DNA of 64,000 bases from an uncultured Fibrobacter sp. (lineage in GTDB: Bacteria > Fibrobacterota > Fibrobacteria > Fibrobacterales > Fibrobacteraceae). The stretch lies in the NCBI GenBank assembly GCA_946414075.1, contig CAMKNA010000006.1, positions 1 to 64,000 on the forward strand, given 5' to 3'. This document shows, piece after piece, positions 1-27,669 of this stretch (position 1 is the first letter of the stretch; the number at the start of each line of letters is the position of its first letter). The notes below the pieces were generated by a model. That model was given only the letters and a program-made list of their open reading frames with translations, did not search any database and had not been told where the DNA came from. The translations under genes and the position numbers were made by a program.

Positions 1-75
1 TTTTTGACCGCTCGGGCTAGAATAGGGAAAACAGGTACAGGGCTGGCCCTCGCTCCCACCTAAAGGTGGCCATGT

Positions 76-14099: not shown

Positions 14100-15386
14100 T
14101 TAGATTGCGTTCAGTGCCTGGTCGAGGTCGTTAATGATGTCCTCGTAGTGTTCCGTACCGATGGAGAGGCGGATCGTGGCGGGGCTGATGCCTGCGGCGG
14201 CGAGTTCTTCCGGAGTGAGTTCGGAGTGAGTCGTCGTGTACGGGTGAACCACAAGGCTCTTCACGTCGGCAACATTAGCGAGCAGGCTGAAGATCTTGAG
14301 GCTGTCGATGAACTTGAAGGCTTCGGCCTGGCCACCCTTCACATCGAAGGTGAAGATGGAACCACCGCCGTTGGGGAAGTAGCGTTCGTAAAGCTTGTGG
14401 TCCGGATGGTCCTTGAAGCTCGGGTGATTGACCTTCGCGACCTTCGGGTGCTTCGAGAGAAATTCCAGAACCTTCTTGGTGTTTTCCACATGACGGTCGA
14501 GGCGGAGCGAAAGCGTTTCGGTGCCCTGGAGCAGCAGGAAGGCGTTGAACGGGGAAATCGCAGCGCCTTCGTCGCGGAGGAGGATTGCGCGGATATAGAC
14601 GATATAGGCAGCGGCGCCAGCAGCGGCAGTGAAGGGCACGCCGTAGCTCGGGTTCGTTTCGGTGAATTGCGGGAACTTGCCGCTTGCAGCCCAGTCGAAC
14701 TTGCCTCCGTCAACAATCACGCCACCGAGGGTAGTGCCATGACCGCCGATGAACTTCGTTGCGGAGTGAACGACGATGTCGGCACCGTGTTCAATGGGGC
14801 GGATCAGATACGGCGTACCGAAGGTATTGTCGATCACGACCGGAATCTTGTGCTTGTGGGCAATCTCGGAGATGGCCTCGATGTCCGGGATGTCGGAATG
14901 CGGGTTGCCGAGCGTCTCGATGAGCACGAGCTTCGTATTTTCCTTGATGGCGGCTTCGACTTCCTTGAGGTCGCGGGTATTCACGAACGTGGTGTCTACG
15001 CCGAACGGGCGGAGCGTATGTTCCAGGAGGTTGTAGGTACCGCCGTAGATGGTGCGCTGGGCAACCACATGGTCACCCTTGCGGGCGAGAGCCGTGATGG
15101 CGTAGGTGAGGGCTGCGGCGCCAGAAGCGACGGCGAGACCTGCGATACCGCCTTCGAGAGCGGCGATGCGCTTCTCGAAAACATCCTGCGTGGTGTTGGT
15201 GAGTCGGCCGTAGATGTTGCCGGCATCCTTCAGGTGGAAACGGTCGGAAGCATGCTGTGCGCTGTGGAACACGTAAGAGGTGGTCTGATAAATAGGAACG
15301 GCGCGAGAATCGGTTGCGGGGTCTGCCTGTTCCTGGCCAACATGGAGCTGAAGAGTTTCAAAGTGGAGCTTGTTCTGTGTAGTCAT
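14100..15386 (-). CDS. metY: O-acetylhomoserine sulfhydrylase
   Basis: A 428-aa PLP enzyme of the Cys/Met metabolism family, the usual length for MetY. The PLP lysine is in 'VVHSATKFIGGHGT', and 'QTTSYVFHSAQHASDRF' and 'GNIYGRLTNTTQ' are typical of this branch. It makes homocysteine from O-acetylhomoserine and sulfide in the cytoplasm. The ribosome binding site AAAGGA precedes the ATG. Upstream are a 240-nt leader with strong secondary structure, a TTGACA/TATCTT promoter and a MET-box-like palindrome shared with the mccB operon. Homocysteine made here would feed methionine synthesis and the mccB-mccA route to cysteine. Confidence 0.93.
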   Translation of the reverse strand: MTTQNKLHFETLQLHVGQEQADPATDSRAVPIYQTTSYVFHSAQHASDRFHLKDAGNIYGRLTNTTQDVFEKRIAALEGGIAGLAVASGAAALTYAITALARKGDHVVAQRTIYGGTYNLLEHTLRPFGVDTTFVNTRDLKEVEAAIKENTKLVLIETLGNPHSDIPDIEAISEIAHKHKIPVVIDNTFGTPYLIRPIEHGADIVVHSATKFIGGHGTTLGGVIVDGGKFDWAASGKFPQFTETNPSYGVPFTAAAGAAAYIVYIRAILLRDEGAAISPFNAFLLLQGTETLSLRLDRHVENTKKVLEFLSKHPKVAKVNHPSFKDHPDHKLYERYFPNGGGSIFTFDVKGGQAEAFKFIDSLKIFSLLANVADVKSLVVHPYTTTHSELTPEELAAAGISPATIRLSIGTEHYEDIINDLDQALNAI

Positions 15387-15412: not shown

Positions 15413-15626
15413 AAGCAACGGGGTTTTTCGCTGACCCTTGCTTACTAAAATTTTTTCTGGGGTGTCCTTTAGGCTTGTTTTTCTAACCTGTAAAGCCTTA
15501 AGGACGTAAGACTTTCGGCTAGTTCGTTCTCAGAATGCCTCGCGGCATTCGACAGTCACTTATCATAGGCGCTCCTTCGAATGCTTAGGGTTCACAAACC
15601 ATTTTGTTTTCCCTATCAATCTTGTA
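15413..15626 (-). promoter_or_regulatory. structured metY leader, candidate riboregulator
   Basis: The predicted 5' leader (start of transcript near 15626) contains several hairpins on the minus strand. (1) GGCATTC (15544-15550) can pair either with 15533-15539 (GNRA-type GCGA loop) or, within an 8-bp stem, with 15577-15584; the two are mutually exclusive. (2) A 13-bp stem with one mismatch joins 15493-15505 and 15464-15476. (3) A bulged stem lies at 15413-15443 near the ribosome binding site. There is no T-run, so any control would be translational or of another kind. I could not match it to the SAM-I, SAM-II or cobalamin consensus. This 320-nt stretch holds no gene. Confidence 0.5.
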
Positions 15627-15632
15627 GGGTTT

Positions 15633-15661
15633 AAGATAGAATAAGAAAACGGGCCTGTCAA
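15633..15661 (-). promoter_or_regulatory. metY promoter (TTGACA-17-TATCTT)
   Basis: On the minus strand, a perfect -35 TTGACA (15661-15656) and a -10 TATCTT (15638-15633) are separated by 17 nt. The same spacing and -10 are found at mccB. Confidence 0.75.
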
Positions 15662-15672
15662 GGCATAAATCA

Positions 15673-15711
15673 ATACTATTTAACTATTGCTTGTTATAGG
15701 TTTAAGCTATA
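15673..15711 (-). promoter_or_regulatory. MET-box-like palindrome plus second motif, metY
   Basis: Minus-strand TATAGCTTAAACCTATA (15711-15695) followed 13 nt later by AAATAGTAT (15681-15673), itself 11 nt upstream of the -35. Fifteen of 17 palindrome bases and all nine bases of the second motif recur upstream of mccB with the same 13-nt spacing. The palindrome resembles the MET-box of LysR-type methionine regulators. It overlaps the stop codon of the upstream ORF6N gene. Confidence 0.65.
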
Positions 15712-16861
15712 ACAATGCTTCATTTTCCGATTTTGGCTGTATGGTCCGAATCATGTGGTGTCTGTCATACAATTCATCAAACATGCTACGGTATGCCTCA
15801 ATATCATCCAATTGAACGATAGTCGTAATCTTGTTCCCGGCATCTTTGCTTGAAGCTCCGCAATGGTACAGTTTTTCGCTTTTGGTCTTAAAGTCAACAA
15901 GAATGTAGCGGTCGTGAAACTTGTGCGCGGCAGAAACTTTGTCAATCGAAACACCCGGCATTACGCCTCGGAAATCGTTGAGCATATCGTCCGTTATGCG
16001 AGCGTATTGGTCACTTGCTATCAAGATGGAAACGCCTTTGCGTGCGTACCGAAGCAAATTTAGGGTCTTAATGTCGACATAGTTGTCGACAATCAACAAC
16101 TTTTTCTTAGCTATGCTGTAAATCTGCGCGTAGGCGACATCGGCCTCCAACTTCTGCCCGTTCAGAATCAAGAAGTGCCTATAGGTTGAGGGATCGACGA
16201 AATTTTCCATGACCATCTGGAGGTCCACATTGAATTTTCCCAAATCGCTCCGGATATCGCGAACTTCGCCGGAAAGTTCCTTAACTTCGGCAGAAACCAC
16301 TGCGATTTCATGTGTATTTTGAGCTGTTTGCGCTGCAATCTGTGCAATTCCCGCAGTCCCGAGCAATTGCTGATTTTCTGCGACGATATAGTCCTTCATC
16401 TGCTTGAAAAGGCGGATAAGGGCCTTACTTTGGGCAGTTGCCCGCTCACCCTTGAGAACAGTCATGAGCATATAGATGCCCTGTTCGGTAAAGGCAAATG
16501 GCATCTTTCTTAAACCACCCCAACTTGAAGTCAAAATTTTTGACTTCAAGTTGTCTTTTTTGTAAAAATTGTCGAAATTCGACGAATTTTCGCATCTTGA
16601 GGTCGATTTTTTCGATTTCAAGATTTCAAATTCATCTGAAGTCAGCTGAAATCGAAAATCTTCGTCGAATTTTTCGATATTGTTTTTTACCTGTTGGTTA
16701 AAGACCTTTTTCTCATACCCGTAGATTTCAGCCAAATCGGCATCCAGCATCACCTTGACCCCGCGAATCGTGTATATCCGCGATTTGAGCAGGTTTTCGT
16801 CTATCAGGGATATTCCCGGCTTGACTGGCGTAACCGCCACATCTTTCTTCTTTTTAGCCAT
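15707..16861 (-). CDS. ORF6N domain protein with PLD-like C-terminal domain
   Basis: A 384-aa protein. Residues ~25-150 are an ORF6N-type DNA-binding domain ('YTIRGVKVMLDADLAEIYGY', 'MPFAFTEQGIYMLMTVL') as found in phage antirepressor-like proteins. A helical linker follows. The C-terminus has 'KLLIVDNYVDIKTLNLL', 'FHDRYILVD' and 'YHCGASSKDAG', the pattern H-x-R-x4-D then G-A-S-x-K, which resembles half of a phospholipase D/nuclease HKD site with arginine replacing lysine. The same C-terminal domain is present in the proteins at 24328 and 41057. The gene lies behind a terminator-like hairpin (16939-16972). The reading of the C-terminus as a nuclease is inference. Confidence 0.75.
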   Translation of the reverse strand: MAKKKKDVAVTPVKPGISLIDENLLKSRIYTIRGVKVMLDADLAEIYGYEKKVFNQQVKNNIEKFDEDFRFQLTSDEFEILKSKKSTSRCENSSNFDNFYKKDNLKSKILTSSWGGLRKMPFAFTEQGIYMLMTVLKGERATAQSKALIRLFKQMKDYIVAENQQLLGTAGIAQIAAQTAQNTHEIAVVSAEVKELSGEVRDIRSDLGKFNVDLQMVMENFVDPSTYRHFLILNGQKLEADVAYAQIYSIAKKKLLIVDNYVDIKTLNLLRYARKGVSILIASDQYARITDDMLNDFRGVMPGVSIDKVSAAHKFHDRYILVDFKTKSEKLYHCGASSKDAGNKITTIVQLDDIEAYRSMFDELYDRHHMIRTIQPKSENEALL

Positions 16862-24232: not shown

Positions 24233-24242
24233 TTTGTATATT
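24233..24242 (+). promoter_or_regulatory. TTTGTATATT promoter box
   Basis: An exact copy of the recurrent box, 31 nt before the terminator-like hairpin and 85 nt before the start of the ORF6N gene. Confidence 0.5.
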
Positions 24243-24273
24243 GTGCCCCAACACCAGAAAGGGTGATATTAAA

Positions 24274-24309
24274 AGATCGCTATCCGCGCAGGCGGGGCGG
24301 TCTTTTTTT
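24274..24309 (+). terminator. terminator-like hairpin in leader of second ORF6N gene
   Basis: AGATCGC (24274-24280) pairs with GCGGTCT (24297-24303), with CCGC/GCGG pairing inside, followed by seven T's. It lies between the TTTGTATATT box and the ribosome binding site. It could also end the preceding FISUMP transcript. Confidence 0.75.
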
Positions 24310-24327
24310 ATGCCCAAAGGAGTAAAA

Positions 24328-25272
24328 ATGGCGAAAAAAGGCGAAATTGTAGTGACAAACCCGCTCGTGGAGTCGGGGGTCGAAAAGATGATTCGGGTTA
24401 TCCGTGGCAAGCAGGTCCTACTTGACCGCGATATTGCGACGCTGTATGGCGTTGAAACTAGGGCTATAAATCAGGCTGTAAAACGTAATATTGAACGTTT
24501 TCCAGAGCGGTATTGCTTTCAGTTGGTAAAGGGAGAATTGGAAAACTTGAAATCACAAAATGTGATTTCAAGTTGGGGTGGAGACCGGTTTATGCCCTAT
24601 GTTTTTACTGAACAAGGGTTTGCAATGCTTTCATCCGTTTTGAAAAGTAGAGCCGCTGTGAATGTTTCCATAGCGATTATGGATGCATTCGTCGCCATGC
24701 GGCAGTATTTATACCAGAATGGGGGGATTGTCAATCGTCTTTCTAATGTGGAAGCAAAGGATTTAGAGCAGGATGCCCGCCTTCTTGATCATGACAAAAA
24801 AATAGATTCGATTTTCGAGGCGATGGACCGCGGCGAACTGCAGTCGAAGGGGCTGTATTACAACAACCAGATGTTCGACGCTTATGTGTTCGTGTGCGGG
24901 CTAATCAAGCAGGCGAAAAGGCGGATTGTCCTTGTGGACCGATTCGTGGACGAGAAGGTGTTTGTGATGTTGCTCAAGCGCGGCAAGGGTGTGTCAGCGA
25001 CCATCTACACCTACGACAAAAGCAAGGCACTCAAGGTGGACCTGGCAACTTACAATGCGCAGTATGGCGACTGCCCGCTCAAGGTTCTGCCGAGCTACGG
25101 AATGCACGACCGTTTCCTGTTTATTGACGATACGGCATACCATTTCGGTGCCTCACTGAAAGACTTGGGCACAAACACGTTTTTCTTCACGAAGGAGGAT
25201 TTCACACTAGAAGAGGTGCTGAAGAAGTCGGAAGAAAAACGGAAGGAACTGGAGAGCCTGAAAGGTGGATGA
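24328..25272 (+). CDS. ORF6N domain protein with PLD-like C-terminal domain (second)
   Basis: A 314-aa protein. The N-terminal ORF6N domain is clear: 'VIRGKQVLLDRDIATLYGVE', 'NQAVKRNIERFPERYCFQL', 'SSWGGDRFMPYVFTEQG'. After a linker the C-terminal domain reads 'RRIVLVDRFVDEKVFVMLL', 'GKGVSATIYTY', 'MHDRFLFIDD' and 'YHFGASLKDLG'. This matches the C-termini at 15707 and 41057. I chose ATG 24328 because AAAGGAG lies 6 nt upstream; the track start at 24241 would run through the hairpin. The gene ends 15 nt from the convergent mccA gene. Confidence 0.8.
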   Translation: MAKKGEIVVTNPLVESGVEKMIRVIRGKQVLLDRDIATLYGVETRAINQAVKRNIERFPERYCFQLVKGELENLKSQNVISSWGGDRFMPYVFTEQGFAMLSSVLKSRAAVNVSIAIMDAFVAMRQYLYQNGGIVNRLSNVEAKDLEQDARLLDHDKKIDSIFEAMDRGELQSKGLYYNNQMFDAYVFVCGLIKQAKRRIVLVDRFVDEKVFVMLLKRGKGVSATIYTYDKSKALKVDLATYNAQYGDCPLKVLPSYGMHDRFLFIDDTAYHFGASLKDLGTNTFFFTKEDFTLEEVLKKSEEKRKELESLKGG

Positions 25273-25286
25273 GGTGCTGAAGAAAG

Positions 25287-26198
25287 TTACTCGTACAGCC
25301 CCTTGCTGAAGTAACGGTCGCCGCGGTCGGGGGCTACGAACACGATATTTCCGCGGGCACCTGAGGCGATGAGCTTTTTGGCTGCGGTGAATGCCGCGCC
25401 CGAAGAGGAGCCCGCAAAGATTCCTTCTTTCTGGGCGAGTTCGCGAGAGCCGGTAAAGGCGTCGTCATCGTTGATTTTGATGACCTGATCCACCAGCGAC
25501 ATGTCCATGGTATCGGCGATAAAGTCGTTGCCGATTCCTTCGATGTTGTAGTCGCCATGTTCGCCGCCGCCCATGGTAGAGCCGATGGGGTCTGCCAGCA
25601 CGCCCTTGATGCTTGGGTTGCGTTCCTTGAGAGCCTTGAGAATGCCGCTGTAGGTGCCGCCGCTGCCTGCGCCTGCCACCACATAATCTACATGCCCGTC
25701 TAGGTCTTCATAGATTTCGGGGCCGGTGGTTTCGTAATGGGCGAGGGGGTTGGCCATATTGTGGAACTGCCGAAGCGAAACAGAATCGGGAATCTGTTTC
25801 AAAAGTTCTTCGGCCTTCTTTTCGGCACCGAGCATGCCTTCTTCGCGCGGGGTGTTGATGAGTTCAGCACCGAGAGCACGCAAGAGGGTCTGCTTTTCTT
25901 GGGAGAACTTGGTGGGCACCACGAATATCACGCGGATGCCGCGGTTGAGGGCAGCGAAGGCAATGCCGAGGCCGGTGTTACCTGCAGTCGCTTCGATAAT
26001 GGTTCCGCCCGGTTTGAGCGTGCCCTTTGCGAGGGCGTCGTTCACCATGTAAAGGCCGGTGCGGTCTTTCACGCTACCCGAGGGGTTCCAGAGTTCCAGT
26101 TTGGCAAACAGGTTCACGCCTTCGGGGAGGCCTACATGGGTGAGTTTTACCAGCGGAGTCTTGCCGATTAAAGATTGCATTGATTCGTAATAATGCAT
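25287..26198 (-). CDS. mccA: PLP-dependent cystathionine beta-synthase/cysteine synthase (MccA-like)
   Basis: A 303-aa fold-type II PLP enzyme. The PLP lysine is in 'PSGSVKDRTG' and the phosphate loop is 'GSGGT'. The substrate loop reads 'ATAGNTGLG' rather than the TSGNTG of standard CysK, and the end 'PDRGDRYFSKGLYE' also recalls MccA (YrhA) of Bacillus, which makes cystathionine from homocysteine and an activated serine. It follows the MccB/MetB-like gene by 11 nt on the same strand. Together they would form a reverse transsulfuration route to cysteine, consistent with the cysteine leader peptide upstream. Plain cysteine synthase is the alternative. Confidence 0.8.
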   Translation of the reverse strand: MHYYESMQSLIGKTPLVKLTHVGLPEGVNLFAKLELWNPSGSVKDRTGLYMVNDALAKGTLKPGGTIIEATAGNTGLGIAFAALNRGIRVIFVVPTKFSQEKQTLLRALGAELINTPREEGMLGAEKKAEELLKQIPDSVSLRQFHNMANPLAHYETTGPEIYEDLDGHVDYVVAGAGSGGTYSGILKALKERNPSIKGVLADPIGSTMGGGEHGDYNIEGIGNDFIADTMDMSLVDQVIKINDDDAFTGSRELAQKEGIFAGSSSGAAFTAAKKLIASGARGNIVFVAPDRGDRYFSKGLYE

Positions 26199-27535: not shown

Positions 27536-27579
27536 AATTGTATTTGTTTTTATTGTTTCCTATTATTTCGGTAGGAAAT

Positions 27580-27608
27580 AAGATAGATAATTCTTTTTCC
27601 TTTGTCAT
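27580..27608 (-). promoter_or_regulatory. mccB promoter (ATGACA-17-TATCTT)
   Basis: On the minus strand -35 ATGACA (27608-27603) and -10 TATCTT (27585-27580) are separated by 17 nt, as at metY. An inverted repeat TTTCCTA/TAGGAAA lies just downstream of the -10. The 313-nt gap before mccB is filled by the attenuator, this promoter and the activator site. Confidence 0.7.
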
Positions 27609-27630: not shown

Positions 27631-27669
27631 ATACTATTTTCTTGTAACGGGCTATAGGTTTAAACTATG
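27631..27669 (-). promoter_or_regulatory. MET-box-like palindrome plus second motif, mccB
   Basis: Minus-strand CATAGTTTAAACCTATA (27669-27653), then 13 nt, then AAATAGTAT (27639-27631), then 22 nt to the -35. The metY site has the same two motifs and 13-nt spacing but 11 nt to the -35. Confidence 0.65.

Follow-up and report, generated by a model that had tools for sequence, protein, structure and literature searches.

A conserved two-dyad site, very probably LysR-type, at sulfur gene promoters of Fibrobacter and its recurring distances from the −35 element

The promoters of metY and of an mccB-like gene, both located in a 64,000-nucleotide stretch of DNA from an uncultured Fibrobacter sp. 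(the window), share a two-part element that lies at a different distance from the −35 hexamer in each. What is this element, and why does its distance to the promoter differ? According to an initial annotation, a 17-bp palindrome, identical in 15 of 17 bases between the two promoters, is followed after exactly 13 nt by AAATAGTAT and then by a promoter with a 17-nt spacer and the −10 hexamer TATCTT, the sole spacing change being 11 nt (metY) versus 22 nt (mccB) between AAATAGTAT and the −35. We could confirm all of these features, the identity of the palindromes to the base (Table 1); counted from the end of the second dyad introduced below, the −35 distances are likewise 11 and 22 nt. The elements named in the initial annotation thus stand, but it had missed a further palindrome located just past both −10 hexamers. 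An Rfam search of the window returned no match, and thus no riboswitch or other known RNA in the metY and mccB leaders. The mccB-like gene and the cysteine synthase-like gene behind it are probably co-transcribed, judging from their spacing. Dyad 1 at metY overlaps the stop codon of an upstream gene on the same strand (15707-16861), which a gene at 24241-25272 resembles by eye.

Table 1. Features of the metY and mccB promoter regions in the window
Feature	Position	Strand	Remarks
Dyad 1 at metY, TATAGCTTAAACCTATA	15695..15711	-	core ATAG-N7-CTAT at 15710-15696; presumed LysR-type recognition site
Dyad 2 at metY, ATAGTTAAATAGTAT	15673..15687	-	right part is AAATAGTAT, 15681-15673
metY promoter	15633..15661	-	−35 TTGACA 15661-15656, 17-nt spacer, −10 TATCTT 15638-15633
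Imperfect dyad just past metY −10, ACCCTACAAGATTGATAGGGA	15610..15630	-	presumed Rrf2/CymR-like repressor operator
metY, O-acetylhomoserine aminocarboxypropyltransferase (O-acetylhomoserine sulfhydrylase)	14100..15386	-	TIGR01326 610.7 bits, cut-off 495.1
Dyad 1 at mccB, CATAGTTTAAACCTATA	27653..27669	-	core at 27668-27654
Dyad 2 at mccB, ACAAGAAAATAGTAT	27631..27645	-	left half degenerate; AAATAGTAT at 27639-27631
mccB promoter	27580..27608	-	−35 ATGACA 27608-27603, 17-nt spacer, −10 TATCTT 27585-27580
Dyad just past mccB −10, TTCCTACCGAAATAATAGGAA	27557..27577	-	exact TTCCTA-N9-TAGGAA; presumed Rrf2/CymR-like operator
mccB-like gene, cystathionine gamma-lyase/gamma-synthase family, 385 aa	26210..27367	-	NCBIfam matches, none above its equivalog cut-off
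Cysteine synthase-like gene directly downstream of mccB	25287..26198	-	cysKM 325.5 bits, below the cut-off of 344.15

Within the window, the core ATAGNTTNAANCTAT is found twice at up to 2 mismatches against 1.5 occurrences expected, which is not significant by the window alone. In the genome to which the window belongs (a 2.31-Mb assembly of 65 contigs, 82% complete), the exact core occurs in 2 places, the metY and mccB promoters, and in 6 places when one mismatch is allowed. It is the comparison between genomes, rather than the window count alone, that establishes the shared site as real: in a search of 80 genus genomes that accepted any distance of 4-34 nt between palindrome and TAGTAT, each of the 19 matches (in 18 genomes) had the spacing seen in the window, compared with 1 match for the reversed pattern. 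A looser palindrome with floating distance placed 97 of 100 matches at the regular spacing (3 reversed matches); the exceptions are a match in G012, which also carries a regular copy, one in G052, which has ATAATAT at the regular place, and one unrelated match. With the distance fixed, the composite pattern at up to 2 mismatches gave 162 matches versus 12 for reversed controls and was present in 64 of the 80 genus genomes, with none in the other 16. Outside the genus, one sister genus has the regular site in 5 of 6 genomes, and the only other matches among 167 genomes of the phylum are four, all at other spacings. A spacing shorter by 11 nt in genus g11 (G151, G152) was considered as another one-turn move and dropped, there being no sulfur gene downstream. 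The view that the palindromes and their shared spacing reflect chance or AT-rich similarity could draw on the 1.5 window occurrences expected for the palindrome, yet given 162 composite matches against 12 and a single spacing used of 31 possible, we regard its probability as negligible. Recurrence with a fixed partner upstream of sulfur genes also rules out that the palindrome is a terminator or a stray repeat.

We assigned target genes to 100 distinct sites, refound among 216 loci, in a non-random sample in which related genomes are counted more than once. From the matches listed, 86 were taken and 68 loci retrieved, omitting loci already in the set, most metE-type matches and several near-duplicates of the mccB type. 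As the initial annotation had anticipated, the sites found in the 80 genus genomes mostly lie upstream of sulfur genes: their targets are metE (17), metY1 (17), mccB (14), two other metY-like families (9), patB (4), cysK (3), LysR genes (4), tusA (2), a sulfite-reductase gene (1) and aprA (1), sulfur metabolism and LysR targets together making up 72 of the 100. The remainder are a CytX-like transporter (17), a short-chain dehydrogenase (1), a lipoprotein-like hydrolase (2) and 8 unassigned genes; the names sulfite reductase and CytX stand for matches below the NCBIfam cut-offs. One unassigned site (L180) is metY1 by its protein, and 3 of the 8 look like cytX, metY1 and mccB by sequence. At the cytX loci (L023, L149, L150 and others) the gene encodes a CytX-like NCS1 permease annotated, below cut-off, as a hydroxymethylpyrimidine transporter; either thiamine uptake is part of the sulfur regulon, or the permease carries another substrate. 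On this comparison of sequences, the element is a conserved sulfur-regulon site, very probably of the LysR type.

A profile in which 15 gene families were weighted equally resolves the element into two dyads. Dyad 1 reads ATAG-N7-CTAT, a core that contains T1-N11-A13, and dyad 2, ATA-N9-TAT, starts 23 bp further on, with ATA at +23..25 and TAT at +35..37. TAGTAT, which lies within AAATAGTAT, is the right end of this second, degenerate dyad. Since the search pattern included TAGTAT, part of its conservation is built in; ATA, the left half, was outside the pattern and is conserved at 0.73, 0.84 and 0.86. In 67 non-Fibrobacter loci, mostly from Firmicutes, dyad 1 is separated from a −35-like hexamer by 23 nt in 28 of 32 cases and in 0 of 2 controls, and a scan able to show displaced promoters at 34 or 45 nt found none among these loci. 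A whole-genome scan with 31 spacings allowed, covering 50 of 59 chosen loci, gave regular spacing for 31 of 31 matches in 28 of 50 genomes of these relatives (mostly Firmicutes; 6 reversed matches), with a pattern that fuses TAT to the −35, so that displaced promoters are invisible to it. The −35 follows dyad 2 at once in the Firmicutes relatives and in most Fibrobacter families, an arrangement that we call class 0. The second motif had been suggested to be an activation site, and it would appear to behave as one, being the conserved half of dyad 2 and abutting the −35 in the commonest promoter class.

Several palindromes lack TAGTAT at the fixed place. In L007, L011, L017 and L026 (positions 1501-1515), ATAGTTTCAAGCTAT abuts the ATG of a conserved predicted ORF of 499 aa. 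L016, L027, L031 and L032 have perfect dyads followed by TACTAAT or a similar flank; the dyads of L016 and L027 precede a further metY paralogue, and those of L031 and L032 are near the same sequence. The palindromes of L009, L024 and L033 either separate an Rrf2 gene from metY or precede a cysK-like gene, and by eye this group may be class 0 with its second half lost.

We determined promoter distances by a blind search for the best TTGACA/TATAAT pair with a spacing of 16-18, at offsets from −2 to 33 past TAGTAT (a wider range produced more ties). The set comprised 105 sites, the 100 distinct ones and five from the sister genus, with the 8 unassigned sites treated as one family. An offset of 0 was found for metE (17/17), patB (4/4) and the two other metY families (9/9), and also for tusA, sulfite reductase, aprA, lysR3, one lysR2 and one cytX (L110). 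The promoter is located at offset 11 in 10 of the 17 metY1 sites, at 11-12 in 13 of the 17 cytX sites and at 12 in one dehydrogenase. For mccB, all 14 sites of the genus have offsets of 21-22, and the sister-genus mccB has 12. Weighted by family, 18.0 of 21 units fall at 0, 11, 12, 21 or 22, compared with a mean of 2.9 and a maximum of 5.9 in 300 downstream shuffles; these ladder positions were picked after viewing the sequences by eye, and the shuffle test thus measures concentration and not prior prediction. A score of at least 8.5 was reached by 88 of the 105 sites, 82 on the ladder and 6 off it. The initial annotation had seen a shift by one helical turn between metY and mccB. This idea of a preserved phase is strengthened by the 0, 11-12 and 21-22 series, of which the single turn is one part of a three-step ladder.

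In 7 of the 17 metY1 sites and 2 of the 3 cysK sites, a TTCCTA-like operator (see below) is located 95-97 nt downstream, without a ladder promoter. A second promoter type, off the ladder and with an intact LysR site, is seen in L103, L104, L163, L186, L188, L190 and L195 (metY) and in L192 and L208 (cysK). Its likely −35 lies, by eye, about 101 nt away, a position that we found more credible than a ladder step of about 45 nt, which was dropped.

The ladder could alternatively reflect descent, the metY-type and mccB-type promoters each going back to a single insertion (of about 11 or 22 bp) that was then passed on. This would account for the finding that sites of the same family almost always have a common offset, and that class-0 promoters of several families are alike over their whole length. 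However, offsets of orthologues differ by about one turn (21-22 versus 12 in the sister genus for mccB, 11-12 versus 0 in L110 for cytX), several unrelated families sit at 11-12, and intermediate offsets are rare even though 1-nt changes occur (82 of the 88 strong calls are on the ladder). We therefore consider descent a possible but rather unlikely explanation. As class-0 promoters may share ancestry, there are few independent ladder steps; the reading in terms of helical phase is well supported by the sequences, but on the strength of only a handful of independent moves.

Which protein would bind these sites? In relatives, the LysR1 gene and metE are transcribed divergently on either side of the bipartite site, and thus a LysR gene with the same site at its own promoter, as sought by the initial annotation, exists in these genomes. 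LysR1 was not found in the 82% complete assembly of the window genome. The only close LysR homologue found there, besides a weak one, is lysR2 (G000:C9:31347-32261; 45% to LysR1), which makes its product the candidate binder. LysR2 matches both the LysR HTH (PF00126) and substrate-binding (PF03466) domains above cut-off and is 97% identical to a protein of an 'uncultured Fibrobacter sp.'. A tree of 62 selected rows separates LysR1 and lysR2 into two groups, each with a support of 100/100. The LysR1 group includes Enterococcus raffinosus, Priestia, Selenomonas, Roseburia and Streptococcus suis, several of them on long branches. The E. raffinosus gene is divergent from metE-metF, and those of Priestia and Selenomonas are located next to metE-like genes; the S. 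suis protein, encoded on a plasmid and 48% identical, sits on a long branch and may not be MtaR. The lysR2 group places Fibrobacter inside a set of gut Bacillota rows, along with others labelled Treponema, Spirochaetaceae and Succinivibrionaceae. This distribution is most simply explained by horizontal spread, though many rows are metagenome bins. Close LysR2 relatives in L252, L256, L280 and L293 come from bins labelled Spirochaetaceae, Treponema, Aeromonadales and Succinatimonas, reflecting either transfer among rumen bacteria or mis-binning.

The lysR2 promoter itself (TTGCCG-N17-TATATT) carries the dyad ATAGATTTTTCCTAT, with 2 mismatches to the TT-N-AA core, in the spacer between −35 and −10, followed by an exact TTCCTA-N9-TAGGAA after the −10. 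Among 25 upstream regions of lysR2 and lysR3, the dyad is present in 12 and the TTCCTA-like operator in 22. A dyad between the −35 and −10 is as expected for autorepression, and the palindromes at metY and mccB could by analogy be operators for repression by a LysR-family or other protein, given that sequence alone cannot separate activation from repression. At metY, mccB and the other targets, however, both dyads are located wholly upstream of the −35, which is the position of an activator, and the streptococcal relative of the motif is described as an activator site in the available part of PMC5359408. Repression through this palindrome thus appears improbable.

The palindrome past the −10, TTCCTA-N9-TAGGAA, is positioned by a different rule. 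The 2.31-Mb genome has only two exact copies, one past the −10 of mccB (27557-27577) and one past that of lysR2 (G000:C9:32318-32338), and the metY version (15610-15630) is degenerate. Measured from TAGTAT, the TTCCTA-like operator lies 42 nt away in 10 of 17 metY1 sites, the dehydrogenase and one cysK, 51-53 nt away in the 14 mccB sites and 29 nt away in one metY family (4 of 6 sites). Measured from where the −35 starts, it is about 29-31 nt away, whatever the distance to the LysR site. Among the distinct sites scanned, this operator was not found at metE, cytX, patB, tusA, sulfite-reductase or aprA. The pattern TTCCTAY-N7-RTAGGAA is present in 48 of the 80 genus genomes, and 30 loci with it lie before lysR2, mccB, cysK and a few other genes. 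At least one match, inside a coding frame (L348), looks like chance. In L328, L335, L338, L347 and L350 the operator is located between divergent genes, one of which is biotin synthase-like by eye.

A gene for an Rrf2-family protein (PF02082, 119.2 bits) is located near a contig end in the window genome, and in some relatives the Rrf2 gene neighbours cysK, metY or lysR2. The models scoring next after the superfamily model for the Rrf2 protein are IscR and CymR; for the protein of relative L009, the scores of 91.4 of 195 bits (CymR) and 114.1 of 207.55 bits (IscR) are both below the curated cut-offs. This gene neighbourhood suggests that an Rrf2-family repressor probably binds TTCCTA-N9-TAGGAA.

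From these observed positions, spacings and associations, we infer a binder, its ligand and modes of activation and repression. We consider it likely, with good confidence, that the metY and mccB sites are operators of a LysR-type activator of a methionine/cysteine regulon; the interpretation of the initial annotation is thus supported, as far as sequences go. A LysR tetramer would place one dimer on dyad 1 and the other on the degenerate dyad 2, and it would contact RNA polymerase under a shortage of sulfur amino acids. Assuming a transcription start 7 nt past the −10, the centres of the two dyads in the commonest class fall near −67 (dyad 1) and −44 (dyad 2). With displacements of 11-12 nt (metY) or 21-22 nt (mccB), the protein would still sit on the same side of the helix, and the displaced sites probably act as class-I upstream activator sites via the flexible alpha-subunit domain of the polymerase. 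An Rrf2/CymR-like repressor, bound to an operator that is fixed relative to the −10 and not to the LysR site, probably closes metY, mccB, cysK and lysR2 when cysteine is plentiful.

We are inclined, with some reserve, to the broader view that a rigid two-dyad LysR module, −35-adjacent in gut Firmicutes, passed into Fibrobacter, where it is re-used as a movable unit at 0, 1 or 2 whole helical turns from the −35, with an Rrf2-family operator fixed over the start, activator and repressor being combined by independent geometric rules. If this is true, a class I mode resembling that of CRP, acting at discrete and phase-locked distances, would exist among LysR-type regulators. The natural promoters at three phase-locked distances lend themselves to the study of how LysR-type activators contact the polymerase. 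For a phylum with little regulatory work, the sites offer a concrete sulfur regulon and a promoter rule, tied to the streptococcal MET-box.

We compared the Fibrobacter site to known systems. LysR-type regulators use a site pair, with a recognition dyad (RBS) upstream and an activation site (ABS) beside the −35. Class-0 promoters conform to this scheme in that a T-N11-A dyad lies upstream and a second, weaker site adjoins the −35, whereas at metY and mccB the pair has moved upstream by about one and two turns (11 and 22 nt), off the canonical position. In Escherichia coli, metR is a LysR-type gene divergent from metE with the site between them, the MetR site being TGAA-N5-TTCA; the Fibrobacter relatives share the divergent arrangement but have a different motif.

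OxyR recognises two tandem ATAG-N7-CTAT repeats 7-10 bp apart, according to the portion of PMC8787470 available. An OxyR-like peroxide regulator as owner of the site would fit dyad 1, which is ATAG-N7-CTAT and followed after 8 bp by the second repeat. A further point in its favour is that, among solved structures, the LysR profile hits just one at E < 1e-20, an OxyR, with the match covering the DNA-binding part. Yet the second repeat is ATAG-N7-GTAT at metY and without ATA at mccB, and the targets are sulfur amino acid genes; with its degenerate second dyad and these targets, the Fibrobacter site is thus not an OxyR operator. LysR1 and a LysR2 reach 54.8-56.2 bits where the OxyR families require 329 and 500, and they score better against other LysR families. 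We consider an OxyR-like regulator very improbable.

CymR, in the accessible passages of PMC3828012, is a repressor of cysteine metabolism working with CysK. Fibrobacter resembles CymR/IscR systems in having, in relatives, an Rrf2-family gene beside cysK, metY or lysR2, and a dyad just past the −10 of cysteine genes, but the Rrf2 protein of L009, below both curated scores, is by score neither CymR nor IscR. No CymR operator consensus was found in the literature passages searched, and the titles and abstract openings returned by searches of an open library gave no description of this sulfur regulon in Fibrobacter or of such a ladder for a LysR-type activator.

The closest known counterpart is the MET-box, to which the initial annotation had pointed. 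Its streptococcal form is the 17-bp palindrome TATAGTTTnAAACTATA in the text available from PMC2627894, and TATAGCTTAAACCTATA and CATAGTTTAAACCTATA each match 14 of its 16 fixed bases, a resemblance short of identity. The available part of PMC5359408 describes the motif TATAGTTTSAAACTATA of CmhR, a LysR-family activator, and reports that mutating the motif in a promoter lowers expression. Like the MtaR/MetR/CmhR systems, Fibrobacter has methionine genes as targets (metY here; also metE, metY-like genes and patB) and, in relatives, a LysR-type gene linked to metE. Unlike them, it has dyad 2 at 23 bp from dyad 1, a second part not described in the available text of PMC5359408 and PMC2627894; its targets include cysteine and sulfate genes; the promoter is displaced in two gene families; and a partner palindrome covers the start. 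A MET-box bound by a LysR-type activator is thus known from streptococci, as far as the available parts of PMC5359408 and PMC2627894 go, and the Fibrobacter sites add a second dyad, which indicates what the second half of a MET-box-like site may be, a reach over phyla, a whole-turn series and a fixed partner operator.
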